The notes below the pieces were generated by a model. The model made no database searches, had not been told where the DNA came from, and saw only the letters and a list, made by a program, of their open reading frames with translations. This document shows, in pieces, positions 5,437-20,453 of a DNA stretch of 64,000 nt (position 1 is the first letter of the stretch; every line of letters starts with the position of its first letter). A program made the translations under genes and the position numbers. The DNA comes from Streptomyces sp. GESEQ-4 (GTDB lineage: Bacteria; Actinomycetota; Actinomycetes; Streptomycetales; Streptomycetaceae): NCBI RefSeq assembly GCF_017948455.1, contig NZ_JAFFSU010000001.1, positions 186,001 through 250,000 of the forward strand. The letters are read 5' to 3'.

Positions 5437-6531
5437 TCACGCGCGAGGCGCATGATGCTGCGCAAGTCCCGTGCCGAAGGTCTCGGTCGCGAGGTACGGG
5501 TTGAGGTGCGGGTGACGGCTGGCGACGGCGACGTCTCGCCAATACCGCTGGAGTACGTTCGCGTTGTGGAAGCCGCTCGCGCCGTGCAGATCGAGCATCC
5601 GCTCGACCGCGGCCCGGCAGTCCCGGCCGGCGTCGGCGAGAGCCATGTGCAGGCGGGCATTGTCGGCTTCGGACAGTTCGGCCGTGTCCGCCTCCCGGGC
5701 GACCGCGAGCATGGTGTTTTCGGCGCGGTTCACGAGGTGGGTCGCCTCGGCCAGCCAGTGCCGGGCCCCGGGGGACTCGCCCATCCGGGAGTAGGCGGTC
5801 ATGAACGGCTTGCGGTCCGAGGCGAACATCGCGTTGATCGCGTCGAGCGCGCCCTGGGCGGCACCCACCACCGGGCCGAGCGCCGTCATCGCGTACAGCA
5901 TGAGGTCCCCGAAGGCGAAGGGGTTCCCTGCCGCGAGCCGCTCAGCCGACGCGACTCGCTCTTCCGACACCAGTAGGTCCTCGGCGACCAGGGTGTGGCT
6001 GCCCGTGGCGCGCATACCGGCCATGTGCCAGGTCCGCTCGATGGTCAGGTCGGCCGCCGGTACGACGGCGAAGGAGAGCTCGCCGTCGATCAGCAGAGCG
6101 AAGCCGGCCCAGGCCGCGTCCTCGCAACCGGAGACGTTCGGCCAGCGGCCATTGACGCGCACGCCCCCGGGCACGCGCTCGCCTTGGCCTGCGGGGACAC
6201 CCGTTCCGCACAGGAGCGCGTCCGGGTCGGTGAAGATCTCACTCACCACTGCATCCGGGAAACACTTGGCGGTGATGTTCTTCGAGGTCACGCACGTCCC
6301 GGCGATCCAGGCCGTGGACGGACAGGCTCGGCCCAGGTCGGTCAGGCACCGGGCGACGGTCTCCGCATCCGCCCAGGCACCCCCGTACTCCCGCGGTGTC
6401 CGCAAGGCGAAGACCCCGGTCTTGCGCAGCGCCTCCAGGCTCTCCGCGGCGGGCCGATCGTTGTGTTCCGCGTTCTCGGCATGGGCCCGCAGGATCCGGA
6501 GGGTCTCAGCCTCTGTGGAGTAATCGATCAT
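5437..6531 (-). CDS. Acyl-CoA dehydrogenase-fold flavin monooxygenase
   Basis: A 364-residue protein of the acyl-CoA dehydrogenase fold, of the type used by two-component flavin-dependent hydroxylases (HsaA/HpaB-like group D) rather than true dehydrogenases. Visible family features are the N-terminal helical segment with TPREYGGAWAD, a middle beta domain with SGCEDAAWAGFALL and the C-terminal helical bundle ending in LHGASGFHNANVLQRYWRD, the usual end of HsaA-like enzymes. I start at ATG 6531; upstream codons read into low-complexity sequence. No flavin reductase lies next to it. It is divergent from a broken AraC regulator, which may once have controlled it. Substrate unknown, probably an aromatic or alicyclic ring. 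Confidence 0.8.
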   Translation of the reverse strand: MIDYSTEAETLRILRAHAENAEHNDRPAAESLEALRKTGVFALRTPREYGGAWADAETVARCLTDLGRACPSTAWIAGTCVTSKNITAKCFPDAVVSEIFTDPDALLCGTGVPAGQGERVPGGVRVNGRWPNVSGCEDAAWAGFALLIDGELSFAVVPAADLTIERTWHMAGMRATGSHTLVAEDLLVSEERVASAERLAAGNPFAFGDLMLYAMTALGPVVGAAQGALDAINAMFASDRKPFMTAYSRMGESPGARHWLAEATHLVNRAENTMLAVAREADTAELSEADNARLHMALADAGRDCRAAVERMLDLHGASGFHNANVLQRYWRDVAVASRHPHLNPYLATETFGTGLAQHHAPRA

Positions 6532-6595
6532 GGCGTCGACCCAATCACCGACCGCGCGTGCCGGACCATACGTGAGCCGCCCTGGTTCATACGCG

Positions 6596-6904
6596 GTTGT
6601 GCGCCGGACCCGTGAGCGTAGCGTGCGGGTCGGCCGCGCCGGCGGACGCCTGATCAGGCAGTCGGACTCCCGGGGACTCCGGTTCCCCACCTTCGCCGGC
6701 AGCGGATTCCACATCGTCCTGCGCGGCGCGACGTCACCACAGTGGTGGACGCCGGCCACGATCGCCCGCCAGGTCGGATACTCGACCGAGTTCGCCTTCT
6801 CGGCCGCGTTCCGCCGGGAGTACGGCGTGTCGCCGGCGCGCTTTTGCCGGACTCCGACGGCCGTCCGCGTCGCCGGAAACGCCTTGTCCGAACCGGTGGA
6901 GTGA
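6596..6904 (+). pseudogene. AraC-family regulator, internally deleted remnant
   Basis: An open frame covers both ends of an AraC-type regulator but not the middle. Codons around 6677-6727 give GLRFPTFAGSGFHIVLRG, the start of the cupin sensor domain of AraC proteins of this type. The very next residues (about 6746-6850) give TPATIARQVGYSTEFAF and then the SAAFRREYGVSPARF end of the second helix-turn-helix. Intact members are about 300 residues; only about 100 remain and roughly 200 central residues are missing, including the first DNA-binding helix pair. The junction is in frame near 6727-6745. It cannot fold as a complete regulator. It probably once controlled the divergent monooxygenase. 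Confidence 0.7.
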
Positions 6905-6988
6905 CGGTGACTCAGGGCTGATGAGTTCCGTTTCAGGCCGCGAACGCCCGTACAGGGCGGTGAACTTGGCGGCGTGGGAGGCCATGGG

Positions 6989-8509
6989 CTAACGGGCGCC
7001 CGCCAGGACTTCCGCCGCGGCCACCCCGGATGCGGCGGTGGCACCGTGTGTGAAGATCTGGACGGCTCCGGGAACGGGGGCGCCCGGCAGACCCATCTCC
7101 ACGACGATCGCGTCGGGACGGGCGGCGACGAGGTCTGTGAGGGCGTGCGTCATCCACTCGTGCCGGGAGGCGTCCCGGACGACGACGACCAAGGGGCGTC
7201 CCGAGGCCGGTACGAGTGCGTGCGTCTCCAGGGCGGTGGTCCGGGAGCGCAGTTCCAGATGGTGCATCCGGACGCAGGTGGTGCCGGGCAGCCGCTCGCC
7301 CAGCGGGACGGCGACACCCCAAGGGGTCTCCTTGCCGATGGCCAGGTTGGTGGTGGGCACCAGCTCCACCACGTGCGGCGCGGCGGACAGGGGCAGGGTG
7401 TGCTGTGCGGCTCCGGTCAGCCGGATGGCCCGGCGGGCAGCCGCGAAGCCGATGTCGCTGCCATCGGTGTCGGCTGTCTCGACGGGGCCGGACGGGCCCA
7501 GGCCCGCCGACCAGGCCGCGAAATCCCGGACACGGCCGGCCGCCTCGTCGAGTCGCTCCTCGGTGAGATCTCCTGACCCCACGGCGCCGACGAGAGCGTC
7601 GGCAAGCATGGCGGTGGTGCCCGCCTCGGCGTTCTCGCCGCCGACGCAGACGGCGTCGGCACCGGCGGCGACGGCTCTCACGGTGGCCCCGCCTATTCCG
7701 TATCGGTCGGCGACGGCCCCCATCTCGATGGCGTCGGTGACGATCAGGCCGTCGAACCCGAGTTCCTGGCGGAGCAGTTCGTCCAGGATGCGTCGGCTGA
7801 GCGTAGCGGGCAGGTCGGGGTCGTAGGCGGGGACCAGAAGGTGGCCGCTCATCACCGCGCGAACGCCCGCGTCCAAGGCGGCGCGGAACGGAGGCAAGGC
7901 CTGGGTGACGATCTGTTCGCGGTCGGCATCGTAGGTGGGCAGACCGTGGTGGGAATCAACGGCGACGTCGCCGTGGCCGGGGAAGTGCTTGGCGCAGGCG
8001 GCGACCCCGGCAGACTGAAGGCCCCGGATCCACGCGGCGGTGTGCCGGGACACCACCTTCGGGTCGATGCCGAAAGACCTGACCCCGATGATCGGGTTGT
8101 CCGGGTTGGAGTTGACGTCCGCGCTGGGCGCGTAGTCCAGGCTCACCCCGGCGACGCGCAGTTGGCGTCCCAGATCGGCGGCGACGGCTTCGGTCAGCTC
8201 GGTGTCGTCGACAGTTCCGAGGGCGAAGTTGCCTGGCCGGGTGGATCCGGTCGCGGATTCGATCCGGGTGACATCACCGGCCTCCTCGTCGATCGCGATG
8301 ATCAACTCGGGCTTCTCCGCGCGGAGTTGTCCGGTCAGCCGGGCGACCTGTTCCAGCGAGACGATGTTGCGGCCGAAAAGCACGACGGACGCCAGCCCGT
8401 CACCGATCTCGCGCAGCACCCACTCCGGCGCCTCGGTCCCCACGAACCCCGGCTGCAGGACCGCCAGCGCCAGTCGCCGCAACTCCTTGCTGTGCTTGCT
8501 GGAGACCAT
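6989..8509 (-). CDS. GH3 beta-N-acetylhexosaminidase-like enzyme (NagZ-type domain)
   Basis: A 506-residue cytoplasmic glycoside hydrolase family 3 protein with no signal peptide. NagZ hallmarks are present: KHFPGHGD at 174-181 followed by the DSHHGLP loop at 185-191 (His acid/base of the NagZ branch) and the nucleophile Asp259 in LIVTDAIEMG. After the barrel it keeps a C-terminal alpha/beta domain (about 370-506), longer than the 340-residue Gram-negative NagZ but normal for actinobacterial versions. It should remove GlcNAc from muropeptides or chito-oligosaccharides. Two DasR-like operators lie upstream, which fits aminosugar control. Could act on another beta-hexosaminide. Confidence 0.87.
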   Translation of the reverse strand: MVSSKHSKELRRLALAVLQPGFVGTEAPEWVLREIGDGLASVVLFGRNIVSLEQVARLTGQLRAEKPELIIAIDEEAGDVTRIESATGSTRPGNFALGTVDDTELTEAVAADLGRQLRVAGVSLDYAPSADVNSNPDNPIIGVRSFGIDPKVVSRHTAAWIRGLQSAGVAACAKHFPGHGDVAVDSHHGLPTYDADREQIVTQALPPFRAALDAGVRAVMSGHLLVPAYDPDLPATLSRRILDELLRQELGFDGLIVTDAIEMGAVADRYGIGGATVRAVAAGADAVCVGGENAEAGTTAMLADALVGAVGSGDLTEERLDEAAGRVRDFAAWSAGLGPSGPVETADTDGSDIGFAAARRAIRLTGAAQHTLPLSAAPHVVELVPTTNLAIGKETPWGVAVPLGERLPGTTCVRMHHLELRSRTTALETHALVPASGRPLVVVVRDASRHEWMTHALTDLVAARPDAIVVEMGLPGAPVPGAVQIFTHGATAASGVAAAEVLAGAR

Positions 8510-8580
8510 TGAGTGCGCCTTTCGGGTCGGGCTCGCGTGTCCAGGCCGCCGACGACCTCACATCGGCAGAGGACGCCAGA

Positions 8581-8594
8581 TTGGTACGGACCAA
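8581..8594. promoter_or_regulatory. DasR-like operator (dre-like site 1)
   Basis: TTGGTACGGACCAA: perfect TTGGT/ACCAA arms around a 4-bp centre. DasR sites in Streptomyces follow TGGTCTAGACCA; the outer 4+4 bases match exactly while the centre differs. It lies 72 bp before the GH3 start. Related GntR or other regulators could also use it. Confidence 0.5.
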
Positions 8595-8691
8595 TGAGTC
8601 TTCATTCAGGCTAACCGCCCGTGTCAAGAGGGCTCGAACCTCGTCGACTTGATAACGACACGCCCTGAACTGGCCTGTTTGACAGTGCGAG

Positions 8692-8705
8692 TTGGTCTAG
8701 TCCAA
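8692..8705. promoter_or_regulatory. DasR-like operator (dre-like site 2)
   Basis: TTGGTCTAGTCCAA matches TGGTCTAGACCA at 11 of 12 core positions. It lies 8 bp after a TTGACA hexamer (8679-8684) pointing toward the oxygenase operon, so a bound repressor would sit over that promoter. It could control the operon starting at 8913, the GH3 gene, or both. Confidence 0.5.
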
Positions 8706-8769
8706 GTTGGTGGTACGCGAGTTCGAAGAGGGGCTGGTGTGGCACGTGGTGCAGTGACCCTGCGGACAC

Positions 8770-8808
8770 GACCACCACTCCTCAGGCGGGACCACCACCC
8801 TCAGGCGG
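8770..8808. repeat. Tandem 20/19-bp direct repeat upstream of oxygenase operon
   Basis: Two adjacent copies of a GACCACCAC-CTCAGGCGG unit (8770-8789 and 8790-8808); the second copy differs only by the loss of one T and a local substitution. Head-to-tail copies about two helical turns apart are typical of activator sites such as SARP heptamer arrays, although I do not see a classical SARP heptamer. Confidence 0.5.
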
Positions 8809-8860
8809 TGCGGACACCCATCGCGTTCCTGCCAACCACCGCCCGCGCTCTGCGCAGTTC

Positions 8861-8882
8861 GTGACTCCCGGCCGGGAGTCAC
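8861..8882. promoter_or_regulatory. Perfect 22-bp palindrome before the oxygenase operon
   Basis: GTGACTCCCGG followed directly by its reverse complement, ending 30 bp before the ATG at 8913. With no loop it is more likely an operator for a dimeric regulator than a terminator, but it could also form a leader hairpin near the start of the message. Confidence 0.55.
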
Positions 8883-8912
8883 CGGTACGAGATCAAGGCC
8901 TGGAGCACAGCA

Positions 8913-10004
8913 ATGCCGACGCCTGACCGTTATCTCCATCGAGCCCCCTCGGACGTCCCCTACTTCAGTTCGGACGGCGAGACGTACTTAGCCCAGACGC
9001 CCCTGCGGGATCTGAAGAAGACCCGCCCGCTCCGAGTGCTGTCCGAGGAGGACTTCGCCTTCTGGCAGACGTACGGCTACGTCGTGGTGAAGCAGGCGAT
9101 CCCCGCCTCGTCCGCCCGACGCCTGCTGGACTTCTCCTGGGACTTCCAGGGGCTCGACCCCGACCGTCCGGACACGTGGTACGAGGACCGCGAGTACCGC
9201 TCGGACCTGGACCGTGAACTGCACATCTACGGGTTCGTAGAGGCGTACCACCACCAACTCATCTGGGACAGCCGCCAGACGCAGCGGGTCTACGACGCGT
9301 TCGTCGACGTATGGGACTGCGAAGAACTGTGGGTGACCCTCGACCGGCTCAACCTGAACCCGCCCAACATCAAGAACCGTGACCGCGCCCTGATCCCGCG
9401 CACGGAGGAGGGGTTCGACATCGAGCTCCACTGGGATGTCGACACCACGCTCGGTGTGCTGCCGCAGCGCGTCCAGGGGATCATCGCCCTGAACGACACC
9501 ACGCCGGAGCTCGGCGGGTTCCAGTGCTGCCCCGAGCTGTTCCGGCGGTTCGACCGGTGGAAGGCGCTCCAGCCCGACGACCGCGACCCGATCCGGCCCA
9601 GGATCGACCGCGCGGAGTTCCCCGTAGTGCGACCGGAACTCCAGGCCGGCGACCTGTTGATCTTCAACGGCCTGCTGGCGCACGGCGTGGCACCCAACAC
9701 CTCCGAGAACGGCGTGCGAGCGGTCCAGTACCTGTCGATGATGCCCGCGCTCGAGACCCGTCAGGAGCTCAGGCGCTCCCGGGTCGAGTCGTGGCGCACC
9801 CTCAGCACGCCGGACTGGAACGCGACGCTGCTCGGTGACGCCACGCGACACGAATCCCTGAGGTACGGCAGAGCCTCCCTCAACGAACTCGGTGCCAAGC
9901 TGCTGGGCCTCACGTCCTGGAGCGGGGCACCCCTGGAGGAGGCGGACGGGGCTGACGAGGCAGTCGAGCGGGTGGGAGAAGAGACATGCGCAGAATTTGT
10001 CTGA
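8913..10004 (+). CDS. Phytanoyl-CoA dioxygenase (PhyH)-family Fe(II)/2-oxoglutarate oxygenase; TTA codon
   Basis: A 363-residue non-heme iron oxygenase. The metal triad is visible as His173-x-Asp175 in ELHWDVD and His257 in LLAHGVAP, with Arg269 (NGVRAVQY) placed to bind 2-oxoglutarate. PhyH enzymes in actinomycete clusters hydroxylate or halogenate small molecules or amino acids; here Asp175 is kept, so hydroxylation is expected, not halogenation. Codon 26 (8988-8990) is TTA, read by the bldA tRNA in Streptomyces, which makes this first gene a developmental gate for the operon. The SD-like GGAG lies 8 bp before ATG. The next gene starts 19 bp before this one ends, so the two are coupled. Confidence 0.85.
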   Translation: MPTPDRYLHRAPSDVPYFSSDGETYLAQTPLRDLKKTRPLRVLSEEDFAFWQTYGYVVVKQAIPASSARRLLDFSWDFQGLDPDRPDTWYEDREYRSDLDRELHIYGFVEAYHHQLIWDSRQTQRVYDAFVDVWDCEELWVTLDRLNLNPPNIKNRDRALIPRTEEGFDIELHWDVDTTLGVLPQRVQGIIALNDTTPELGGFQCCPELFRRFDRWKALQPDDRDPIRPRIDRAEFPVVRPELQAGDLLIFNGLLAHGVAPNTSENGVRAVQYLSMMPALETRQELRRSRVESWRTLSTPDWNATLLGDATRHESLRYGRASLNELGAKLLGLTSWSGAPLEEADGADEAVERVGEETCAEFV

Positions 10005-11305
10005 CTCTCCCCACCAACAGGCCCTGTTCCCCGACGATCGCGGCCATCGGTGAGGAAGCGGCCTACGCCGCCGAGCACTTCGACACCGAGGTCCACCTGC
10101 TGATCCTCGACTCCTGCGAGGCCCCCGCGTACGCGGAGCACTCCGAGGCCGTGCGCCGCCTCCCCGGCAATCCGCGGATCGTCGTACACCACTTGGGCGA
10201 GGCGGAACAGCGGGACTTCCTCCAGCGAGTGATCGGCCGGTCCGGGGCCATGAAGCCCGACCTGCTGCTGGACCTGATGCTTCCGGCGGCCTCCTCCTAC
10301 GGTGCCTGTACCAACCGCGCATTCCTGATCGCCATCGCGCTCGGCTGCGAATCCGTGCACCGCAGGGACTCCGACAGCCGATACCAGGTCGTGGACGGCG
10401 AGCCCGTCTTCCCCATCCATCACGAGCTCATGACGCTGGGCCGGCGTGCCGCCGACGCCGCGCACGACGTCACCGAGAACGCGCTGGCCGCGCGCCACGC
10501 GGACAAACGCGTCGCGATGGTCGGCAGCTCCTTCGTGGGCGAACTCTCCGTGGACATCGGCGAGATCCTCCGGCTCGACCCCGATGTCTACTACGACATG
10601 GTCAGCCTGTGGGCGCCCGTGCACTGGTCCGGCGAGCAGAAGAAGGCGCTCGTCGCCGAGTCCTTCCGAGGAGCGGGCTCGCAGACGTTCGTCCGCGACC
10701 ACTCGACACTCACCCTGGTCGACCCCATGCGGGTGGACATGTGCAACATCAGCTTCCACGGGGTGCACGAACGCGTGCCGCTGCCGCCCGCGACCGACAC
10801 GATCGGCAGTGACTACTTCCTGATCCACCTGGTCCACGATGCCGCCCTGCCGGGTGTGCTGCACAACCGGGACATCGTGAACTTCTACACCGGTGAACGG
10901 CGGACCGACTCCGGGTTCATGGCGTACCAGACGCGCTATGTCAAGTTCCTGCTGTCGATGCTGTACTTCAACTTCATCTACGACGGAATGGGCCGGGCCG
11001 GAGCGTCGTTGCTCGACGACCGGGGGCAGGTGCGCGCGTCCGTCGTCGCCCGGCTGGCGAGGGAGAGCACACGGCTCGACCGTGGCGAGAACGTCCAGCG
11101 GTTGGACATCCTCGACGCCGCGTACCGGCAACTGGGCGGCAGATACGCCACGTTCGCCGATCTCCTGGCGCGGCACCGCGAACGCCTCCTCGACGAAGCA
11201 CGGAGCGACATCGAGGACTTCGCACTGCTGGTCGAGGCATGGGAGCCGCTGGTGGGGGCGGCCGGACTCACCCCCGTAAACCCGGCACTCGGGCAGCCGG
11301 AATGA
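9986..11305 (+). CDS. GT-A-like protein of the DUF6271 type
   Basis: A 439-residue protein that I recognise only by type: its N-terminus (LTLPTNRPCSPTI) resembles a Streptomyces cluster-associated family labelled DUF6271. The fold looks like a GT-A glycosyltransferase: an alternating beta/alpha start with HLLILDS, then an acidic DxD-like motif Asp128-Ser-Asp130 inside HRRDSDSRYQ where GT-A enzymes bind the metal-nucleotide sugar. No signal peptide or membrane helix. It overlaps the oxygenase gene by 19 bp and is followed closely by the decarboxylase, so it should act in the same pathway. A sugar-transfer or nucleotidyl-transfer role is inference; a non-catalytic role is possible. Confidence 0.6.
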   Translation: MRRICLTLPTNRPCSPTIAAIGEEAAYAAEHFDTEVHLLILDSCEAPAYAEHSEAVRRLPGNPRIVVHHLGEAEQRDFLQRVIGRSGAMKPDLLLDLMLPAASSYGACTNRAFLIAIALGCESVHRRDSDSRYQVVDGEPVFPIHHELMTLGRRAADAAHDVTENALAARHADKRVAMVGSSFVGELSVDIGEILRLDPDVYYDMVSLWAPVHWSGEQKKALVAESFRGAGSQTFVRDHSTLTLVDPMRVDMCNISFHGVHERVPLPPATDTIGSDYFLIHLVHDAALPGVLHNRDIVNFYTGERRTDSGFMAYQTRYVKFLLSMLYFNFIYDGMGRAGASLLDDRGQVRASVVARLARESTRLDRGENVQRLDILDAAYRQLGGRYATFADLLARHRERLLDEARSDIEDFALLVEAWEPLVGAAGLTPVNPALGQPE

Positions 11306-11313
11306 GAAGGGCC

Positions 11314-12498
11314 ATGGCACATGAGCCCGAGTCGTCATCCCTGTTCGCCGCGCTGGCGGCCGCCACCGAGGACCGGATCGTCTTCGACCTGTCCGGAATC
11401 GAGGACCGCTACGAGACGCTGCGGCGCGAACTGCCCGGAGTCGACGTCCGTTTCGCCATGAAGGCCTGTCCGGTGGACGAGGTACTCACGTGCCTGGCGA
11501 GAAGGGGTGCCGGGGTGGACGGGGCGAGCCCCCGTGAACTGGAGCAGGCGCTGCGGGCCGGCGTGCCGGTGGCGAGGATGCACTACGGCAACACCGTCAA
11601 GTCCGACCGGGACATCGCCGACGCCCACCGCCTCGGCATCAGGGACTTCGCGACCGACAGCCTTCAGGACGTGGCGGCCATCGCGGTCCATGCCCCCGGC
11701 GCCCGGGTCTTCTGCAGACTGGCGACCAGCGGGGAAGGGGCGCTCTGGGGCCTCAGCAACAAGTTCGGCTGCTCGCCCGCCGACGCGGTGCGGGTGCTGG
11801 AATCGGCGCGGGACAAGGGGCTGACACCGTCGGGCCTGTCCGTACACGTCGGTTCGCAGCAGATGACCGCCGACGCCTGGCACAGTGCCGTCGAGTCACT
11901 GGCCGACGTCCTGACCGCCCTGGGCCGGCGTGGCATGGTCCTGGACCACGTCAACCTCGGCGGCGGACTTCCGGCGCTCGGGTACCTCGACCGGTACGGA
12001 ACGCCGCTGGAACCCCCGATGGACAAGATCTTCGCCGTGATCCGCGAGGGAATGCGACACCTCAGGGAAGTCCACGGCGGCCACCTCGAGTTCGTCATGG
12101 AGCCGGGGCGCCACCTCGTCGCCGACCACGGAGCCATCCGGGCCCACGTGGCCCGGCTGTCCGAACGGCAAAGACCGAACGGCGAGCGCCAGTACTGGCT
12201 CTACCTGAGCTGCGGCAAGTTCAACGGTCTCTACGAGATGGACGCGCTGCAGTACCGGCTCGTGTTCCCCACACATCGTGACGCCGAGTGCGTCCCCGCC
12301 GTCATGGCGGGTCCCACCTGCGACAGCGACGACTCCTGTCTCCCCGAGCACGGACTCGTCCAGGTACCGAAGGACCTGGCATCCGGAGATCCGGTCTGGG
12401 TGCTGTCCAGCGGCGCCTACGCGATCAGCTACATGACCCGGGGCTTCAACGGTTTCGACCCGCTTCCGTACACCTGCGCGAACGGGTGGCGCCCGTGA
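11314..12498 (+). CDS. PLP-dependent fold-III amino-acid decarboxylase (ornithine/lysine type)
   Basis: A 394-residue alanine-racemase-fold decarboxylase (group IV). PLP lysine is Lys50 in VRFAMKACP; the phosphate-binding GGGLP is at 216-220 and EPGR at 263-266. The substrate loop GPTCDSDD has Cys336-Asp337 as in ornithine and lysine decarboxylases, rather than a diaminopimelate-type loop. It should release a diamine such as putrescine or cadaverine, or a hydroxylated version if the oxygenase acts first. ATG 11314 follows GAGAAGG by 3 bp; ATG 11302, overlapping the previous stop, is an alternative that adds four residues. The GNAT gene overlaps its stop codon by 4 bp. Confidence 0.88.
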   Translation: MAHEPESSSLFAALAAATEDRIVFDLSGIEDRYETLRRELPGVDVRFAMKACPVDEVLTCLARRGAGVDGASPRELEQALRAGVPVARMHYGNTVKSDRDIADAHRLGIRDFATDSLQDVAAIAVHAPGARVFCRLATSGEGALWGLSNKFGCSPADAVRVLESARDKGLTPSGLSVHVGSQQMTADAWHSAVESLADVLTALGRRGMVLDHVNLGGGLPALGYLDRYGTPLEPPMDKIFAVIREGMRHLREVHGGHLEFVMEPGRHLVADHGAIRAHVARLSERQRPNGERQYWLYLSCGKFNGLYEMDALQYRLVFPTHRDAECVPAVMAGPTCDSDDSCLPEHGLVQVPKDLASGDPVWVLSSGAYAISYMTRGFNGFDPLPYTCANGWRP

Positions 12499-13025
12499 GT
12501 GAAGACATACGCGTACGCCACATCACCGAAGCCGACTGGGGCGCGATCGTGGCGATGGAGTCCCGTGCCTACGCCGGACTCGGTCTGTCGGAGGGGCGCG
12601 CGGCGCTGAGGTCCAGAGCGGACGCCTCACCGAGCACCTGTTTCGTCCTGGACGTCGGTGCCCAGCCGGCCGGGTATCTGCTGGCACTGCCGTATCCGGC
12701 CGGCCGGTATCCCGATCTGGAACGGGCGGAAGAGGCGGTGATCCCGTCGCCCTTCTCGCGCAATCTGCACCTCCACGACATCGTTGTCACCGAGCGCCTT
12801 CGCGGCAGAGGACTGGCACGACACCTCCTGAACCACCTCACTCTGACGGCCGGTTCGCGAGGGTACGAGCGGATCTCGCTGATCGCCGTCGGCCACAGCG
12901 AGCCGTTCTGGTCGGCGCGCGGGTTCACGGCGCACCCGGGGATCTCTCCCGGCGGTTACGGCCCGCATGCCGTCTACATGTCCAAGGCGACGAAGCGAGC
13001 TGATCTACTTGTTCCGAGTGCATGA
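12495..13025 (+). CDS. GNAT-family N-acetyltransferase
   Basis: A 176-residue GNAT protein starting at GTG 12495 (GTGA overlap with the decarboxylase stop). The acetyl-CoA pyrophosphate loop is seen as RLRGRGLARHLL at about 98-109, preceded by the beta-4 strand HDIVVTE, and followed by a C-terminal ERISLIAV strand and the SEPFWSARGF motif usual near the GNAT C-terminus. In the operon it could acylate the amine made by the decarboxylase, either as a biosynthetic step or as self-protection. The substrate cannot be read from the sequence. Confidence 0.87.
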   Translation: MSEDIRVRHITEADWGAIVAMESRAYAGLGLSEGRAALRSRADASPSTCFVLDVGAQPAGYLLALPYPAGRYPDLERAEEAVIPSPFSRNLHLHDIVVTERLRGRGLARHLLNHLTLTAGSRGYERISLIAVGHSEPFWSARGFTAHPGISPGGYGPHAVYMSKATKRADLLVPSA

Positions 13026-14172
13026 CCCCTTCTACCGCGGCCAGTTGGCGATCGCCGCACTGTTCTGTTCCCTCGGCTTCCAGTACGCCACCTGGGCCTC
13101 GCGGATCCCCGCCATCAAGGCGGACCTCGGTCTGACCGCGGCCGAGGTGGGTGTGTTGCTGATGGCGGCGGGGATCGGCGCGGTGGCGTCGTTCCCCCTG
13201 GTACCGGTGCTCATGAAGCGGCTGGGCTCCGCGCGGCTGGCGCTCCTGTCGACCCTCGTCCTGACTCTGCTGCTCCTGGCCCTGGCCGCGGCGCCGAACT
13301 ATCCGGTCGCCTTGCTGGTCCTCCTTGCCGACGGAGTGTTCGTGGGATGCCTGAACGTCGGCATGAACGCGCAGGGAGCGGCTCTCGAGACGCGGCACGA
13401 GCGCAATGCCATGGCCAGGCTGCACGCGACGTTCAGCGCGGGTTCCCTGCTTGCGGCGCTCCTCGCCTCCGGTATGAACGCGGTGACCTCGTCGGTCGCG
13501 GGACACTTCGGCGTGGCGGCCGTCATCCTCGTACTGCTGGCTGCCTTGGCCCGCCCCGGTCTTCTCGCCGAGGACGCGCCTGCCGCAGAGAAGGAGGAGA
13601 AGGCGAAGAGCCGTGGCAGATGGACCCTGCCGTCCCGTATGACGTTGTGGATGTGCTGTGCCATGGCGTTCGGCACCGTCACCGAGGGCTCCATGAACGA
13701 CTGGTCCGCCCTTTACCTGAGGGAAGTCGCCAAGGCGTCAGCAGAACTGGCGCCCATGGGCATCGCCGTCGTGTCGGGCATGATGGTGGTGGCCCGTCTC
13801 CTGGCCGACGGCTGGCGCAGCCGCTGGGGCGACGGACGCGTCGTCCTCCTCGGCAGTGCGCTGGCCGCCGCCGGGCTTGTCTTCGCCCTGGTGGGCGGGG
13901 GAGTGGTGACGGCTCTCATCGGGTTCGCCTGTGTCGGACTCGGAAGCGCGGCGGTGACCCCTTGCGTCTACGTGGCCGCGGCGAAACAGGGCTCGGACGC
14001 GCTGGCCCTGGTGGCCGCCATGGGCACGACGGGCCTGCTGGCCGGGCCGCCGCTCATCGGCTTCGTGGCGAATGCGAGCAGCCTGGTGTGGGGCCTGGCG
14101 CTTGTCGCGGCAGCGGCGGCCGCCGTCTCCCTGTGCAGCACGCGCATCCGGTGGACACCCGCGACCGGCTGA
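13018..14172 (+). CDS. MFS transporter, YbjJ/FucP-like (putative exporter)
   Basis: A 384-residue major facilitator with about 12 membrane helices. The region NVGMNAQGAALE in the first half is typical of the YbjJ branch, and the two halves are joined by a charged loop around AEKEEKAKSRGRW. The start is uncertain: GTG 13018 gives an 8-bp overlap with the GNAT gene and places the first helix at about residue 6-25, while ATG 12967 would overlap by 59 bp. As the last gene of the five-gene operon it is the likely exporter of the product. YbjJ relatives are annotated only generally, so direction of transport is inferred. Confidence 0.84.
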   Translation: MHDPFYRGQLAIAALFCSLGFQYATWASRIPAIKADLGLTAAEVGVLLMAAGIGAVASFPLVPVLMKRLGSARLALLSTLVLTLLLLALAAAPNYPVALLVLLADGVFVGCLNVGMNAQGAALETRHERNAMARLHATFSAGSLLAALLASGMNAVTSSVAGHFGVAAVILVLLAALARPGLLAEDAPAAEKEEKAKSRGRWTLPSRMTLWMCCAMAFGTVTEGSMNDWSALYLREVAKASAELAPMGIAVVSGMMVVARLLADGWRSRWGDGRVVLLGSALAAAGLVFALVGGGVVTALIGFACVGLGSAAVTPCVYVAAAKQGSDALALVAAMGTTGLLAGPPLIGFVANASSLVWGLALVAAAAAAVSLCSTRIRWTPATG

Positions 14173-14368
14173 ACCGCGCGTCTGAAGGTTGCCGCGCTCC
14201 GGGGTCCCCTGTCGGTGCGAGTCGCGGTTGCGTCCATGGCGATGGTGTACGGACGCGTATGGAACGGCGTCACCGGAGTATGTGCCCGCCGGCCGATTGC
14301 TGGTTGAGTCGACCCGGCGACCAAACGCATCGTAATCCTCGGTCGTGGTGCGGAGTTGAGCCGTCGAC
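14173..14368. other. Gene-free spacer after the five-gene operon
   Basis: I see no convincing coding sequence or strong terminator hairpin between the MFS stop codon and the DinB remnant. Codon bias is lost in all frames, consistent with decayed sequence. Confidence 0.4.
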
Positions 14369-14480
14369 GTGCTGCCCGACCTGGACGCCCCGTGGTTCAC
14401 CGACGAGCGGTGGTCGGTGCGCCGAGTGCTGACGCACATCGTCGCCGAGACCGCCCAGTACGCAGACCCCGCGGGGGAGA
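14369..14480 (+). pseudogene. DinB/DUF664-family fragment
   Basis: About 37 codons read LPDLDAPWFTDERWSVRRV followed by LTHIVAETAQYA, which matches the mid-protein helix pair of DinB-like DUF664 proteins (normally about 160-170 residues, with WSVRWVLTH as the signature). There is no start and no C-terminal metal-binding helix; the match ends just before the GNAT start at 14490. This is a remnant of a deleted gene. Confidence 0.55.
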
Positions 14481-14489
14481 AGCCCGATC

Positions 14490-15056
14490 ATGAAAGGCAC
14501 ATCGGTGACCAACGACGAGACACTCCGCATCGAAACTCTCTCGCCGGCCCACGCCGACGACTTCGACCTCATGTCAGCCGTGACCGCGCTGATCAACGAG
14601 GTCTACGAAGTGGCCGAGGAGGGCTTGTGGGCTCCTGGCACAACGCGGACCAGCCGCCAAGAGGTTGCGTCGCTCACCAAAGCGGAGGAGATCACCGTGG
14701 CGCGGCTGCACGAGGAGGTCGTCGGCTGCGTCCGGATCCAACAACTCGCCGCCACTGTCTGTGAGTTCGGCATGCTGGCTGCTGCGCCCAAGCGGCGTGG
14801 CACAGGGATCGGCCGAGAACTCGTGCGGTTCGCCGAACAGTACGGTCGGGAAGCCGGACTCGACGTCATGCAGCTGGAGTTGCTCGTTCCGCGCCGGTGG
14901 TCGCACCCTTCCAAGCAATTCCTGGCCGACTGGTACGGACGCATCGGCTACCGGGTGGTCCGCACAGGCTCGATCGACGAGTCGTACCCGGAGCTGGCTC
15001 CCCGCCTGGCCACGACGTGCGACTTCGTGATCTATCAGAAGAATCTGCACGCCTAG
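14490..15056 (+). CDS. GNAT-family N-acetyltransferase
   Basis: A 188-residue acetyltransferase. The acetyl-CoA loop appears as RRGTGIGRELVRFAEQ (about residues 110-125), preceded by the CEFGMLAAAP strand and followed by the LADWYGRIGYR motif common at the end of bacterial GNATs. A GGGGGAG sequence upstream supports ATG 14490; GTG 14505 with AAAGG upstream is an alternative. The gene stands alone between a DinB remnant and the converging GH38 gene. Its codons 145-155 (14922-14954) are repeated exactly at 15189-15221, at the tail of the GH38 gene. Substrate unknown. Confidence 0.85.
   Translation: MKGTSVTNDETLRIETLSPAHADDFDLMSAVTALINEVYEVAEEGLWAPGTTRTSRQEVASLTKAEEITVARLHEEVVGCVRIQQLAATVCEFGMLAAAPKRRGTGIGRELVRFAEQYGREAGLDVMQLELLVPRRWSHPSKQFLADWYGRIGYRVVRTGSIDESYPELAPRLATTCDFVIYQKNLHA
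14922..14954 (+). repeat. 33-bp direct repeat, copy 1 (within GNAT gene)
   Basis: Encodes LADWYGRIGYR in the GNAT. An identical 33-bp copy lies at 15189-15221, 267 bp downstream. Bases either side of the repeat differ, so the identity is sharply bounded. Confidence 0.9.
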
Positions 15057-15179
15057 CCGAGTCCTTCAGCGGTCCTTCTTGGCCCAGAGGGTGGCGGCGG
15101 GCGGGCTGCGAGGTGCCTCCAGAACGTTTCTGTGGGGGAATCTTTGTGACTTCAGTGATGCCACTTGATATGCGTGCGT

Positions 15180-18100
15180 TCACAGTTGCTGGCCGACTGG
15201 TACGGACGCATCGGCTACCGGCTGGAGGGTGACTGCTGCCGTTCCGAAGGCCGGTACATCGACCGGGATGACGCCGTCCGGTTCCGGGGTGAGTTCGCTG
15301 GGGACCAGGCCGAGGTAGTTCGTGCGGAAGGCCTGGGTGAAGGAGAACGGGGTGCTCAGACGGCAGGTGACCGGGACGTCGGCGATGGACTGCAGACGGA
15401 TCATGAGGCTTCCTTCGCTCGGGACGGTCAGGCCCACGAGGCGTACACGGGGATCCTCCACGGTCAGGAACTGCATCTGTGCCGGCGGCTCCGGCTGAGC
15501 CTCGGCACGGGCGCGGACCGCTACGAGCGGGTGGCTGGTGACGGCCGCGGTACGCATGGCCAGCTGCTCACCGAGCCCGCCGGAGGCGAAGCCGACGCTG
15601 TAGCGAAAGACGTGATCAAAGGCCTGCTGAGCGGGGAAGTTCGTGTCCCAGATGTTGTTGTGCACCCAGGAGAAGACGGTGGCCGGTTCCTCTTGCGGCA
15701 ACGACTGCGGATAGGGAACGTAAGGGATCGCGATCCCGCCGAGCTGCACGAGGGGCGCGTCGGCCGTCGCCAGCGCGGCGTGGTGGCGGCCGTCGCTCAG
15801 ACTGGTCCAGCGCCGGATGGCTCGCATGTGAGTGGCGGACCCTGGCACGGTCGCAAGTCCGGTACCCGTGACGCCGCCTGTCGCTTCCATGCGTACGGCG
15901 GGATCGTCCAGGGCGAAGGGGAAGGCGAAGAACGCACTCTCCTTGGTCAGCGTCGCGGTTTTGTCGATGCGGTTCTCTATGTCGATACGAGCCGCGTCGT
16001 GGGGGAGGCGCACCGTCACGCGGAGTCGGCGCGTGCCTGCCGGGGCGCATTCATAGACCAGCGTGTGGCCGGTGGCGTCGGCGCGGCGTTCGACGAGTGC
16101 CGCGGGCGGTGCCGTGTGGCGTGAGGCGAGCAGGTGCATCGAGTCGTCGGCGACGGTCTTGCTGGACTGGTGATTGAACGCCCCGGCGGTGGCGTACTCG
16201 TCGTACACGTAGCCGTTGAAGCCGATGACGGCGTCCTGCCGGACGAGTTCGCGCCCGGTGTGCTTGTCGAGGATGGAGCCGATGCAGGCCCGACTCAGAT
16301 CAACCGTGACGCGCAGGTGATCGTTCTCCAGGACGGCCGGATCCGCGGGCAGGTCGGTGCTGTCACCGTTTTCCGTGGAAGAAGTGGCGGAAGTGGCACC
16401 GGGGAGGATGTCCAGGCGCACGGCTCCGCAGGCCGGCACGTCGGTGAGGGGCACGTGCAGGAATCGGCCGGCCGCCCGGTGGCGGTCGTTGCTCTGGGCT
16501 TCCTCCCTGAAAGGGAGGGACGTGCCGGTACGGGCATCGAGAACCCGCACCGCCTCGCTCAGGGCCACGGTGCTCTCGGGCAGGAACAGCCGTGCCGTCT
16601 CCGTGCGTGGCCAGCTGCAGGTGTTCACGATGTAGTAGCTGGCCAGAGCTCCTGCGGAGAGTGCGAAGGCTTCGCCGAGCAGCGCGGTGGCGGAGTCCAG
16701 CAGGGTCTCCGCCTCGTCGTGGGCGCGCAGGGCCTGCGCGTACTTCCAGTGCCACTGCGTTTCGCCGGAGCCCTGTCCATGATCGCCATGGGTCCAGGGG
16801 TCACCGGCGCCCCAGGTGTGCTCGTTGAACAGGGAGGCCGAACGGTAGACGGCCGGCGCGGTCTCGGTGACGACCGGGCTGCCGGGTACGCCCATCAACT
16901 GAGCGTAACCAGCCACGGTCTGCGCTTCGGCGAGGGCGGCCTGGCCACGGCGCGTGGCTGCGAGCGGGACGGCCCCCGCACCGACCCCGTCGACCCACCA
17001 GTCGCTCCAGTCGCCCTGGTAGGTCTCCAGCCGGTCCCCGACACGTTTTTCGGCGTCCTCGAAGAAGTCCTGGTTCCGGGAGGTCCGCAGCTGCGGGAAC
17101 GCCCACTGCTCGTTCCAACGGCGCACGGTGTCGGAGATGATCCGCCGGGGCGGGCCGTTGTCCGCGAACTTGCCCAGCACCCGCAGGTGCAGCACGTCCC
17201 AGGGATACGGGTCGGATGTGACGGCGTGATCGAGGATGGGGAAGCCTGGGATCCCCCGGCCTTCGTGGGGGTAGGGGAATTCGGCCAGCGCGCTGAGGTA
17301 GGCGGGCAGGAGGTCGTCGACGTGGTGGTAGGACTCGTCGAAGCCCAGGATCGAGCCCTCCATGTACGCCAGTCCGTGCGGTGTGTCCGTGCGCCAGACC
17401 AGGAGGCTGTTGCCGCTGGGTGCCTGCCAGCGGAAGAGCCGTGGCAGGTGTTCCCCGCCGACGAGATGCGGTACGGCGCGTCCGGCCCAGTTGTGCGCCA
17501 CGGAGAGGTAGCGGATGCCGTTGCCCGCCAGGACGTCGGGCAGGCCGACCACTTGGCCGGGCACGTCGGTCTGCATGGCTGTGCGGATGTCGATGCCGTG
17601 CCGGTCGCGCAGGTCCAGTACGGGGCGGAGGAGTTCGTGCAGTTCGTCCGTCGAGCAGGTCTCCGTATGGAGGTTGAACGGCATCGCCGTGAGTTCGATG
17701 CGGCCTTCGCGCACCCGGTCGAGGAAGCTCTCGACCTGGCGGCGAGGGCGGTTGGACTGCCAGTCCTGGAAGGAGTGGAAGCCCTCGACGGCCCACCGGA
17801 ACCGGGCGGGTTCCGGCCAGTCGTCGGTGTCGTGGCAGAGCTCGAGCAGCGAGTCGAGGTAGGCGCGGTGCTCGGCCATCACCCGCCCCTGGGGGTCGGT
17901 GTAGCCGATGTCGAGGTGGGAGTGCTGCACCAGGTGGAGCGTCCAGTGACGCTGCGGGCGCGCCTCGAAGTCGAACCGGGTGCCTTCTTCCAGGTCGGGC
18001 AGCTCGATCAGCAGGCGTGTCGGTGCGTCCACTTCCGGCACCAGGATGCGGGTGTCGGAGCCCGCACCGGGGAGGATTTCGCAGGTGACCGGAGTGCCCC

Positions 18101-18350
18101 CGCTCGTGGTGACCCGGGCCCGGGTGATGCGCGGCAGGGCGTCGTGCGAGCCCGCGCCGCGGCGGCGCAGACGCAGTCGGATGGACTGGAGCAGTCCACC
18201 CTTGCCGTCGCGGCGCAGCAGGGGCTCGCCCGACAGCTGCACCCGCATGTCGCCGATGCCGGCGCTGGTGGTGACCACGCGGTCACGCAGGATGTCGCGC
18301 GCGATGTCGGAGTCCCACCAGGAGGGCCGGGTCAAGGGGGCCTTGGGCAT
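15180..18350 (-). CDS. Glycoside hydrolase family 38 alpha-mannosidase
   Basis: A 1056-residue intracellular alpha-mannosidase. The zinc-site motif HSHLDIGYTD is at 143-152 (His145, Asp147) and the catalytic nucleophile Asp262 sits in MQTDVPGQ; the middle and C-terminal beta domains (about 520-1040) have usual GH38 length. No signal peptide, so it should trim mannosides after import by the ABC system encoded upstream in the same operon (ABC, GH76, GH38). It starts 54 bp after the GH76 stop. The last 13 or so residues come from a GNAT-derived 33-bp repeat in antisense, so the native C-terminus seems to have been replaced; activity is probably unaffected because the change is terminal. Confidence 0.92.
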   Translation of the reverse strand: MPKAPLTRPSWWDSDIARDILRDRVVTTSAGIGDMRVQLSGEPLLRRDGKGGLLQSIRLRLRRRGAGSHDALPRITRARVTTSGGTPVTCEILPGAGSDTRILVPEVDAPTRLLIELPDLEEGTRFDFEARPQRHWTLHLVQHSHLDIGYTDPQGRVMAEHRAYLDSLLELCHDTDDWPEPARFRWAVEGFHSFQDWQSNRPRRQVESFLDRVREGRIELTAMPFNLHTETCSTDELHELLRPVLDLRDRHGIDIRTAMQTDVPGQVVGLPDVLAGNGIRYLSVAHNWAGRAVPHLVGGEHLPRLFRWQAPSGNSLLVWRTDTPHGLAYMEGSILGFDESYHHVDDLLPAYLSALAEFPYPHEGRGIPGFPILDHAVTSDPYPWDVLHLRVLGKFADNGPPRRIISDTVRRWNEQWAFPQLRTSRNQDFFEDAEKRVGDRLETYQGDWSDWWVDGVGAGAVPLAATRRGQAALAEAQTVAGYAQLMGVPGSPVVTETAPAVYRSASLFNEHTWGAGDPWTHGDHGQGSGETQWHWKYAQALRAHDEAETLLDSATALLGEAFALSAGALASYYIVNTCSWPRTETARLFLPESTVALSEAVRVLDARTGTSLPFREEAQSNDRHRAAGRFLHVPLTDVPACGAVRLDILPGATSATSSTENGDSTDLPADPAVLENDHLRVTVDLSRACIGSILDKHTGRELVRQDAVIGFNGYVYDEYATAGAFNHQSSKTVADDSMHLLASRHTAPPAALVERRADATGHTLVYECAPAGTRRLRVTVRLPHDAARIDIENRIDKTATLTKESAFFAFPFALDDPAVRMEATGGVTGTGLATVPGSATHMRAIRRWTSLSDGRHHAALATADAPLVQLGGIAIPYVPYPQSLPQEEPATVFSWVHNNIWDTNFPAQQAFDHVFRYSVGFASGGLGEQLAMRTAAVTSHPLVAVRARAEAQPEPPAQMQFLTVEDPRVRLVGLTVPSEGSLMIRLQSIADVPVTCRLSTPFSFTQAFRTNYLGLVPSELTPEPDGVIPVDVPAFGTAAVTLQPVADASVPVGQQL
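15189..15221 (+). repeat. 33-bp direct repeat, copy 2 (overprints GH38 3' end)
   Basis: Exact copy of 14922-14954. Read on the minus strand it supplies the last codons of the GH38 gene (PVADASVPVGQQL), a sequence that also appears antisense to the GNAT. The mannosidase therefore ends in borrowed sequence. Confidence 0.9.
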
Positions 18351-18404
18351 GGTGCGTTGGTGTCCTTTTCGGGTCGGGCGGTCAGCCGACTGCGGGTGGT
18401 GGTC

Positions 18405-19598
18405 TCAGCGTCTGGTACGGGCCAGAGTGGCGAAGATCTGGATCATGGCGGACTGTTCGAGGGTTTCGGCCGGAATATTGGGGTCGTAGTCGCCGCCGCC
18501 CGACGGCTGGAAGTGGAACAGCCCGGTCGCGGCGTTTCGGTTGGTGGCGTACGTGCTGTCCGCGTAGGTGCTCATGGCCTGCCGGTAGGCGGGGTTGCGG
18601 CGTACGGCGTCCAGCGCGAGCAGGTCCTTGAAGTAGAAGGCGTTGAAGATGGCCGGCTGATCGTGCAGGCGGGTGCCCTGGGTCCAGTACGCCAGGGAGC
18701 CGCGGGCGTCCTCGACGGCCTTGTTGAGGTAGCCGGCGTTGCCGGTGCCGCGGTAGAGGGCGGTTGCTGTGCCGATCATGGAGCCTGAGTTGTAGGTCCA
18801 CAGGGTCGGGTTCGTGCTGCCGTCGTCGCCGCAGTCGTTGGCGTAGAGGCCCGGTTCCTTCCGCATGCACGAGTACACCCAGCCGTACCACTGCTCGGCC
18901 TTGTCCAGGTAGGCGCGCTTGCGGGTGTGCTCGTAGAGCCTGGCGGCGAGCTGGGCGGACAGGGCCGTGACATTGGTGGCGCGGACGTTGTTGTTGGGGG
19001 AGTCGAACCAGTCCATGCCGCCGGGGCAGGGCTTGGCGGGGTCGGCGTCCCAGGCGCGTGTGACGATCGGCACGACCTGCTCGGCCCGGTTCAGGAACTT
19101 GGTGTCGCCGGTGCTCTCGTACTGGTCGAGTTGGCTCAGCGCGACCACGGCGTTGTCGTCGTAGTACACGTCACCGCCCGTTCCCAGCGGGGCCGGCAGG
19201 TAGGACTGGTAGCCCGGCCGGGCGCCGGGTGCGAAGTACAGCTCGACGGTGTCGAAGCGCTCGGCCGCGTCCGGGCGGTAGGCCGGGCCGGTGCCCGGGA
19301 GTCGCTGCATGTCCACGGTGGCCGCGGCGGCCTCGCGCAGCGGCCACAGGTAGGAGTGCTCCCGGTCCGTAGGCTGCCGGGGCGTGCGCTCCAGGTACAG
19401 GCCGTGGTGGTCGGCGCCCTCGTACAGGTGGGTCTGCAGGGCGTCGTAGGCGCTGGTGGCACGGTCGGCCCACACGGCGGAGGACACGGGGTGAGGGCGT
19501 GCGGGAGGAGTGGGCTGGGCGTGCGCGGGGACGGCACTCCACAGCAGGGCTGCGCAGGCGGCGGTCACGGTGGCACGGCGGAGCAGCGATCTCAGCAT
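18405..19598 (-). CDS. Secreted GH76 endo-alpha-1,6-mannanase
   Basis: A 397-residue secreted glycosidase. A signal peptide is clear (positively charged start, hydrophobic TAACAALLW core, cleavage near AHA-QP at about 27). The GH76 catalytic Asp pair is Asp147-Asp148 in YYDDNAV. The rest follows the (alpha/alpha)6 barrel pattern with the motif GGMDWFDS and LWTYNSGSMIGTATAL. It should cut alpha-1,6-mannan backbones (yeast mannan, mycobacterial lipomannan) outside the cell, releasing oligosaccharides for the ABC importer encoded just upstream. It is fourth in the operon, 36 bp after the second permease. Confidence 0.92.
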   Translation of the reverse strand: MLRSLLRRATVTAACAALLWSAVPAHAQPTPPARPHPVSSAVWADRATSAYDALQTHLYEGADHHGLYLERTPRQPTDREHSYLWPLREAAAATVDMQRLPGTGPAYRPDAAERFDTVELYFAPGARPGYQSYLPAPLGTGGDVYYDDNAVVALSQLDQYESTGDTKFLNRAEQVVPIVTRAWDADPAKPCPGGMDWFDSPNNNVRATNVTALSAQLAARLYEHTRKRAYLDKAEQWYGWVYSCMRKEPGLYANDCGDDGSTNPTLWTYNSGSMIGTATALYRGTGNAGYLNKAVEDARGSLAYWTQGTRLHDQPAIFNAFYFKDLLALDAVRRNPAYRQAMSTYADSTYATNRNAATGLFHFQPSGGGDYDPNIPAETLEQSAMIQIFATLARTRR

Positions 19599-19634
19599 GA
19601 TTGCCCTTCGTGGCTGGAAGGAAGCGTGCGGGGG

Positions 19635-20450
19635 TCAGCGGTGGATCTTGAGGCTGCTGATGAAGAAGCGCTGGGCGGAGAAGAACAGCACCAGGGTCGG
19701 CAGGGAGACGAGGAGGGCGCCGGCCAGCACTACCGGGGGCCCGACGTTGGAGTAGTTGCCCTGCAGATCGGCGAGCGCGGCCATGATGGGCCGGATGTTG
19801 CGGCTCGTGGTGAGTGTGATGCCGAACATCAGGTCGTTCCACACGGCCACGAACTGGAACACGAACACGGCGATCATGGCGGATCTGCTCAGCGGGACAT
19901 GGATCTGCCAGAACAGCCGCCACCAGGAAGCACCGTCCACGCGCGCCGCTTCCACGACTTCCCGCGGCAGTGTGAGGGCGTAGTTGCGCATGACGAAGAA
20001 GGCAAAGGGAATCGCGATGGCCGTGTAGATCAGGACGAGCCCGATCTGGGTGTCGTAGAGGGACGTCTCCGCGTAGGAGAGGAACAGCGGCCGGATGAAG
20101 ACCTGCAGAGGCAGGAGCGTGCCTGAGTAGATCACCCAGAACCACAGCACCTGCCGCTTCACGGGCATGATGATGGTGGCGAAGGCGGCGCACGTGGCCA
20201 CCGCGACAGCGGCCAGCGCGCTGACAACGGCGTACAGCAGACTGTTGCCGAGCGCCGGGCCGAGTTGGGCCTTGTCCCAGGCCTGGGACATGTTGTCGAA
20301 CAGTCCGAAACTCTCCGGCAGCCAGTGCGGACTGCCCGAGTAACTCTCGGCCGGCACCAGCGCGTTGACTACCAGGAGCCAGGTCGGAACCAGCCACAGC
20401 ACGGCGAGCACCACGACGGTGCCATTGCGCAGAACTCGGCCCAGAGACAT
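19635..20450 (-). CDS. Sugar ABC transporter permease, MalG type
   Basis: A 271-residue inner-membrane permease with six predicted helices. The EAA loop that docks the ATPase is seen as EAARVDGASWWRLFWQIHVP. It sits 3 bp after its MalF-type partner, giving a heterodimeric channel. No ATPase is encoded in the locus, so it probably uses a shared MsiK-type ATPase, as many Streptomyces sugar importers do (family knowledge). Substrate is inferred to be manno-oligosaccharide from the neighbouring GH76 and GH38. Confidence 0.93.
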   Translation of the reverse strand: MSLGRVLRNGTVVVLAVLWLVPTWLLVVNALVPAESYSGSPHWLPESFGLFDNMSQAWDKAQLGPALGNSLLYAVVSALAAVAVATCAAFATIIMPVKRQVLWFWVIYSGTLLPLQVFIRPLFLSYAETSLYDTQIGLVLIYTAIAIPFAFFVMRNYALTLPREVVEAARVDGASWWRLFWQIHVPLSRSAMIAVFVFQFVAVWNDLMFGITLTTSRNIRPIMAALADLQGNYSNVGPPVVLAGALLVSLPTLVLFFSAQRFFISSLKIHR

Positions 20451-20453
20451 TGG

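Follow-up and report, generated by a model that had tools for sequence, protein, structure and literature searches.

What is made by a compact block of five coupled genes that recurs across streptomycetes, and to which signal does it answer? The block lies at positions 8913–14172 of a 64,000-nucleotide stretch (the window) of Streptomyces sp. GESEQ-4 (contig NZ_JAFFSU010000001.1, positions 186,001 to 250,000; assembly GCF_017948455.1, 9.24 Mb in 75 contigs). A preliminary description, made from the letters of the window alone, had put it forward as an undescribed specialised-metabolite operon. For the present analysis, gene content, conservation, invariant catalytic residues, predicted fold class and operator sites were read from the sequence and compared between genomes. 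The block is very probably a specialised small-molecule operon. As a whole it is tentatively read, with a confidence just short of even, as a pathway controlled by DasR and responsive to N-acetylglucosamine (GlcNAc), for an exported, hydroxylated, glycosylated, decarboxylated and N-acylated amine.

Gene calls and layout

The following features were assigned, with the supporting match or evidence in brackets.

6989–8509, minus strand: glycoside hydrolase family 3 (GH3) β-N-acetylglucosaminidase, divergent, conserved sixth gene (PF00933, E = 3e-72)
8582–8593, strand not assigned: second dre-like palindrome TGGTACGGACCA, upstream of the GH3 gene (conservation of TGGTN4ACCA)
8693–8704, plus strand: predicted DasR-type operator core (dre) TGGTCTAGTCCA, upstream of the operon (genome-wide rarity and conservation)
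8913–10004, plus strand: PhyH-type Fe(II)/2-oxoglutarate (2OG) oxygenase (PF05721, E = 2e-9)
9986–11305, plus strand: DUF6271 protein, predicted to act on sugar nucleotides with a GT-A fold, as a transferase rather than the also possible mutase (PF19787, E = 1e-236)
11302–12498, plus strand: fold-III pyridoxal 5'-phosphate (PLP) decarboxylase (PF02784, Orn_Arg_deC_N, E = 1e-40)
12495–13025, plus strand: GNAT N-acyltransferase, GTG start (PF00583, Acetyltransf_1, E = 6e-10)
13018–14172, plus strand: major facilitator superfamily (MFS) transporter, probable exporter (PF07690, MFS_1, E = 3e-24)

The five open reading frames (ORFs) from PhyH to MFS were confirmed at 8913–14172 in this order, and the tight coupling claimed beforehand was found as consecutive overlaps of 19, 4, 4 and 8 bp. 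The MFS gene was given its start at GTG 13018 (alternative ATG 12967); for the decarboxylase, an alternative start at ATG 11314 gives the numbering Cys336-Asp337 and an 8-bp gap after DUF6271. The five genes of the earlier outline stand, while the GH3 gene and the two DasR-type sites had been overlooked, and with them the whole unit, as far as the sequence indicates, spans 6989–14172.

Conservation and distribution

For gene-order comparison, 80 related loci (L numbers below) were taken from named genomes; wrong-frame ORFs called over the operon by a simple gene finder (clusters c4, c6, c7, c16 and c17) were disregarded. In 75 of these 80 loci from other genomes, the five-gene set was complete, with gene order and strand unchanged. 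The exceptions were two variants (L108, L114), a locus without a matching MFS gene (L110), one truncated by a contig end (L080) and one in which the MFS gene is rearranged (L079). Hosts were Streptomyces, Actinacidiphila, Streptantibioticus, Embleya and one Actinokineospora, so that the gene order, which the preliminary description had allowed might be peculiar to one species, extends over several genera. PhyH and DUF6271 overlapped by the same 19 bp in 60 of 79 loci and, because order and overlap are kept to this extent, the five-gene set is more than a chance arrangement.

The suggested co-occurrence was examined in a sample of 296 Streptomyces genomes, using E < 1e-100 for DUF6271 and at least 72% identity for PhyH as ortholog cut-offs. 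Both orthologs were carried by an identical set of 88 genomes (~30%), neither gene occurring alone. A 396-genome sample of the phylum returned DUF6271 from Streptomyces only, though Actinacidiphila, Streptantibioticus, Embleya and Actinokineospora possess it. All five genes together with the GH3 gene and a dre core were located on plasmid pSCAT of Streptantibioticus cattleyicolor NRRL 8057 (S. cattleya). The patchy spread (88/296) and the giant-plasmid location fit specialised metabolism, and the logic of one coupled specialised-metabolism operon is borne out by the tight coupling and the wide conservation.

A published cluster with the same gene set was not found in the open-access literature searched, subscription papers and MIBiG lying outside the search, which within that scope agrees with the earlier claim of novelty; DUF6271 was not mentioned in the open-access literature searched either. 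Although about 30% of the sampled Streptomyces genomes carry this compact unit, the literature searched gave no account of it.

DasR-type operator sites

The 16-nt dre consensus published in PMC4398421 is A(G/C)TGGTCTAGACCA(G/C)T, and the same paper reports crr-pts, dasA and dasR as targets of DasR. According to PMC6167110, DasR is released by GlcNAc-6-phosphate (GlcNAc-6P) and glucosamine-6-phosphate (GlcN-6P), DasD is an N-acetyl-β-D-glucosaminidase, and uptake and use of chitin and GlcNAc are otherwise under DasR control.

The site at 8693–8704, upstream of the operon, matches the TGGTCTAGACCA core in 11 of 12 positions, and its 12-mer TGGTCTAGTCCA recurs identically in the dasR/dasA intergenic region of the host genome. 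A genome-wide pattern search with TGGTCTAGWCCA returned four places, namely the operon, the dasR/dasA intergenic region, a position upstream of crr-ptsI and one ~1.7 kb from nagB. Among the related loci, a strict dre core was found at most 450 bp from PhyH in 51 of 78 (control windows: 9 of 3299), and with near variants included 65 of 78 had a match within 1 kb. Of the 41 intergenic regions between divergent GH3 and PhyH genes, 38 contained the palindrome TGGTN4ACCA, compared with 12 of 1575 control windows. Control of both units, the operon and the GH3 gene, by DasR is therefore strongly predicted from these sites. The operon was not seen as a DasR target in term searches of two DasR papers (PMC6167110, PMC4398421).

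The operon would tie DasR-mediated sensing of chitin and GlcNAc to a putative biosynthetic pathway, from which GlcNAc or chitin is predicted as inducer of the metabolite. The idea is directly testable in S. cattleya, because pSCAT holds all five genes, the GH3 gene and the dre core.

The GH3 neighbour

The best solved relative of the GH3 protein of the window is a GH3 β-N-acetylglucosaminidase, and the protein has both the GH3 domain and the KHFPGHG...DSHH signature of the NagZ/DasD type. The NCBIfam β-N-acetylhexosaminidase model matched with E = 1e-53, but its 182 bits fall below the cut-off of 207. Of the 75 loci whose upstream sequence was long enough, 53 had a GH3 gene no more than 3 kb from PhyH; it was divergent in 40 of them and codirectional in 13. 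Other surroundings of the operon vary between species, and for this reason the linkage does not reflect general synteny.

By identity to the GESEQ-4 genome's own DasD, two groups of GH3 proteins were distinguished, the window type (58%) and a das-locus type (73–77%), so that the same activity was recruited to the operon at least twice. At eight loci (L098, L100, L104, L106, L107, L109, L112 and L113), a das-type block of regulator, sugar-binding protein, permease and GH3, with dre cores, precedes the cassette. The one regulator tested from the das-type loci was a DasR relative. In four of the five genomes that were checked, a canonical DasR (94–98% identical) is accompanied by a second copy (67–74%); this paralog stands beside canonical DasR in the genomes of L085, L096, L107 and L109.

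DUF6271

Profile matches of DUF6271 to PDB sequences did not rise above chance, so a fold comparison was needed. The AlphaFold2 model, built with 40 sequences, had a mean predicted local distance difference test score (pLDDT) of 91 and a predicted template modelling score (pTM) of 0.91. Its closest solved fold was MtdL, a GT75 nucleoside diphosphate (NDP)-pyranose mutase (Z 22.8, root-mean-square deviation 3.5, 312 of 371 residues aligned), followed by rice UAM2 (Z 20.0), mannosyl-3-phosphoglycerate synthase (17.8) and glucosyl-3-phosphoglycerate synthase (~15); many GT-A enzymes matched with Z 14–23. Asp128 and Asp130 of the DxD motif, Asp276 and His293 were invariant among 44 aligned DUF6271 proteins. 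The sugar or group transfer with Asp128/Asp130 proposed in the preliminary description is upheld to the extent that a GT-A fold is predicted and both residues are invariant. The model would give DUF6271 its first structural class, and action on a nucleotide sugar is predicted from it with high confidence.

The GT75 residues used for comparison were the glycosylated arginine (Arg159 of MtdL) and, of the aspartates around it, Asp87 (PMC9937993). Compared by sequence position only, the 44 DUF6271 proteins have no invariant Arg within 131–294, and Gly106 occupies the place of Asp87. Because the glycosylated arginine of GT75 is without an invariant counterpart in this comparison, a transferase is favoured and is the probable activity. 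Distant DUF6271-like genes (~26% identity) occur in unrelated settings; one of 26% identity (L119, 9149–10582) stands in a putative cluster amid genes which by eye are asparagine-synthase-like, aminotransferase-like and GT2-like.

Decarboxylase and PhyH oxygenase

Lys54, His182, Glu267, Arg270, Cys340, Asp341 and Tyr373 of the decarboxylase were invariant in 36 relatives, and all of them except Asp341 belong to the residue set by which a fold-III PLP decarboxylase was identified. The nearest solved relatives are lysine and ornithine decarboxylases (LDC, ODC). In ODC, the distal amine of the substrate is held by Asp332 and Asp361 (trypanosome numbering). Asp341 is kept in the operon enzyme, but in all 36 aligned relatives the three ODC/LDC loop residues that carry the second substrate-amine acid are deleted, and this segment is replaced by a loop of GKFNG type in which one Lys is almost always kept. 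An ornithine or lysine substrate is consequently not to be assumed, and the earlier ornithine/lysine-type assignment, which had been based on the Cys-Asp loop, was not sustained.

In the PhyH protein, His173, Asp175, His257 and Arg269 were invariant in 39 relatives, corresponding to the HxD...H triad and the 2OG-binding Arg. No firm match to PhyH came from sequence searches of the PDB. The model was of moderate quality (pLDDT 66), and its nearest folds, DUF1479/YbiU and Candida GIG2, are a lead only; the Pfam Gig2-like model scored 24.5, below its cut-off of 27. Homologs of PhyH with 45–50% identity (L138–L142) sit in another conserved operon, the genes of which by eye are radical SAM, carbamoyltransferase-, MFS, thioredoxin-reductase- and GDSL-like; this operon gave no clue to the PhyH substrate.

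Variant clusters

PhyH and DUF6271 without matches to the decarboxylase or the GNAT gene were found on S. clavuligerus plasmid pF1D18A (L134, variant at 8000–16787) and at L108, L114 and L120, an MFS gene being present at L108 and L134. The surroundings of L114 and L134 encode a phosphopantetheinyl transferase, a small carrier-like protein, a protein with a condensation domain and an amino acid:carrier-protein ligase, which matched PRK07080 in L114 (E = 2e-28) and is annotated as 'hypothetical' in L134. The pattern points to a shared intermediate that bears an amine, is made by PhyH and DUF6271 and is completed in different ways. A PhyH-DUF6271 pair was also observed on S. clavuligerus plasmid pF1D10B (L135, 10937–15445), with no decarboxylase or MFS match and with an MBL-fold hydrolase and an N-acetyltransferase annotated alongside.

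Proposed pathway and alternatives

In the proposed pathway, we infer the substrate, the product, the sugar, the order of the steps, the role of GH3 and the direction of transport. With chitin or cell-wall GlcNAc in ample supply, GlcNAc-6P would release DasR at both sites. PhyH would then hydroxylate an amino-acid substrate, DUF6271 would attach a sugar to the hydroxylated substrate (GlcNAc-type being the simplest choice), the decarboxylase would take off the carboxyl group to give an amine, the GNAT protein would acylate the amine and the MFS protein would export the product. GH3 might later trim or recycle a β-linked amino sugar, or free an active aglycone. PhyH and DUF6271 would form the core, and the decarboxylase/GNAT tail could be replaced by the ligase, the carrier protein and the condensation domain, as in the sister clusters. 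That an amino-acid substrate is decarboxylated and N-acylated is rather likely; that the sugar is derived from GlcNAc is possible and somewhat doubtful. The most far-reaching version, in which a chitin-switched (DasR), GlcNAc-derived exported molecule of a new class is made, DUF6271 founds a glycosyltransferase/mutase family beside GT75 and GH3 serves activation or recycling, is more doubtful still.

Several observations weigh against this pathway. GH3 was not nearby in 22 of the 75 loci and on that account would be dispensable. The flanks of the dre site deviate from the 16-nt consensus, the overall match being ~11/16 (core 11/12), and in 13 of 78 relatives no close dre match lies inside 1 kb. 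In the S. clavuligerus variants, GH3 and dre were both looked for and neither was found. The host genome itself holds a second partial copy with DUF6271, decarboxylase, GNAT and MFS (L115, G000:C4:52000-70000, at 5645–9696), which is without PhyH, GH3 or a TGGTCTAGWCCA site and has transposase- and integrase-like genes nearby. Finally, the nearest fold of DUF6271 belongs to a mutase family and not to a transferase.

This last point leads to an unlikely alternative for a single step, in which DUF6271 is a GT75-like NDP-sugar pyranose/furanose mutase that makes a furanosyl donor, the other steps of the pathway being unaffected. MtdL, with its C-terminal helical domain, and UAM2 do outrank the best glycosyltransferases in the fold comparison (22.8 and 20.0 against 17.8), but, going by sequence position, the 44 proteins hold no invariant residue that corresponds to Arg159 or Asp87 of MtdL (PMC9937993), and the operon contains no separate glycosyltransferase that could use a furanosyl donor. 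A hydroxylated-polyamine pathway, in which hydroxy-ornithine or hydroxy-lysine is converted to a hydroxy-diamine that is acetylated, exported and decorated with sugar, was considered equally improbable: the solved relatives of the decarboxylase and its invariant Cys340-Asp341 loop point that way, but the Asp332-type loop residues of ODC/LDC are absent in 36 of 36 sequences, where the GKFNG-type loop with its near-invariant Lys is found.

Two further readings change the purpose or the signal of the operon. It could serve the catabolism or salvage of an imported GlcNAc conjugate, with MFS as importer and GH3 as entry step, as might be expected from the genes that DasR otherwise governs (chitin/GlcNAc uptake and use; PMC6167110) and from the das-type ATP-binding cassette (ABC) importer and second DasR added at some loci. 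The oxygenase, the nucleotide-sugar enzyme, the N-acyltransferase and, in the variants, the condensation domain and the ligase are biosynthetic parts, however, and the distribution over 88 of 296 genomes and giant plasmids fits specialised metabolism, which makes salvage very unlikely. Even less credit is given to dre-like sites that are incidental, or bound by another GntR-type regulator, so that the GlcNAc link is not real. The departure of the flanks from the published 16-nt consensus and the presence of several DasR-like regulators (36–38% identical) in the genome would allow for this, but the identical 12-mer in the host's own dasR/dasA intergenic region, the total of four genomic places and the close match that 65 of 78 orthologous operons retain at a distance of up to 1 kb argue for DasR. 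The DasR-controlled biosynthesis of an exported amine was retained as the preferred reading.

Neighbouring genes

Just past the operon and outside the conserved cassette, a second GNAT gene was observed at 14490–15056 on the same strand. Further downstream (window 15180–22729), a minus-strand sugar-use block encodes an alpha-mannosidase-like large protein, a GH76 protein, ABC sugar permeases and a binding protein.

Comparison with known systems

DUF6271 shares with MtdL and the GT75 family (reversibly glycosylated polypeptides) the GT-A fold and the C-terminal helical domain (Z 22.8) as well as the DxD motif, and its invariant His293 corresponds in position to His287, which binds metal in MtdL; it differs in having ~13% identity and, by sequence position, no invariant equivalent of Arg159 or Asp87. 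The mannosyl- and glucosyl-3-phosphoglycerate synthases (GT55, GT81), which put sugar on small hydroxy-acids, likewise have the GT-A fold (Z 14–18), whereas identity is 9–14% and the operon context is another. The decarboxylase has all PLP and Cys-Asp catalytic residues of lysine and ornithine decarboxylases, and is set apart from them by the 3-residue deletion and its own WLYLS-GKFNGLYEMD motif. For the PhyH model (pLDDT 66), DUF1479/YbiU and Candida GIG2 were the closest folds (Z 16.6–18.7; other oxygenases at most 16.4); GIG2 is itself named as GlcNAc-inducible, whereas PhyH scores under the Pfam Gig2-like cut-off.

The operon is judged to belong to known kinds, a small specialised-metabolite operon and a predicted DasR target, and not to be a categorically new system. 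Like the DasR regulon with its DasD, it has the operator core; its GH3 protein is a paralog of DasD, and some species have a dasR-dasABC-type operon next to it. Unlike that regulon, it carries biosynthetic and export genes.

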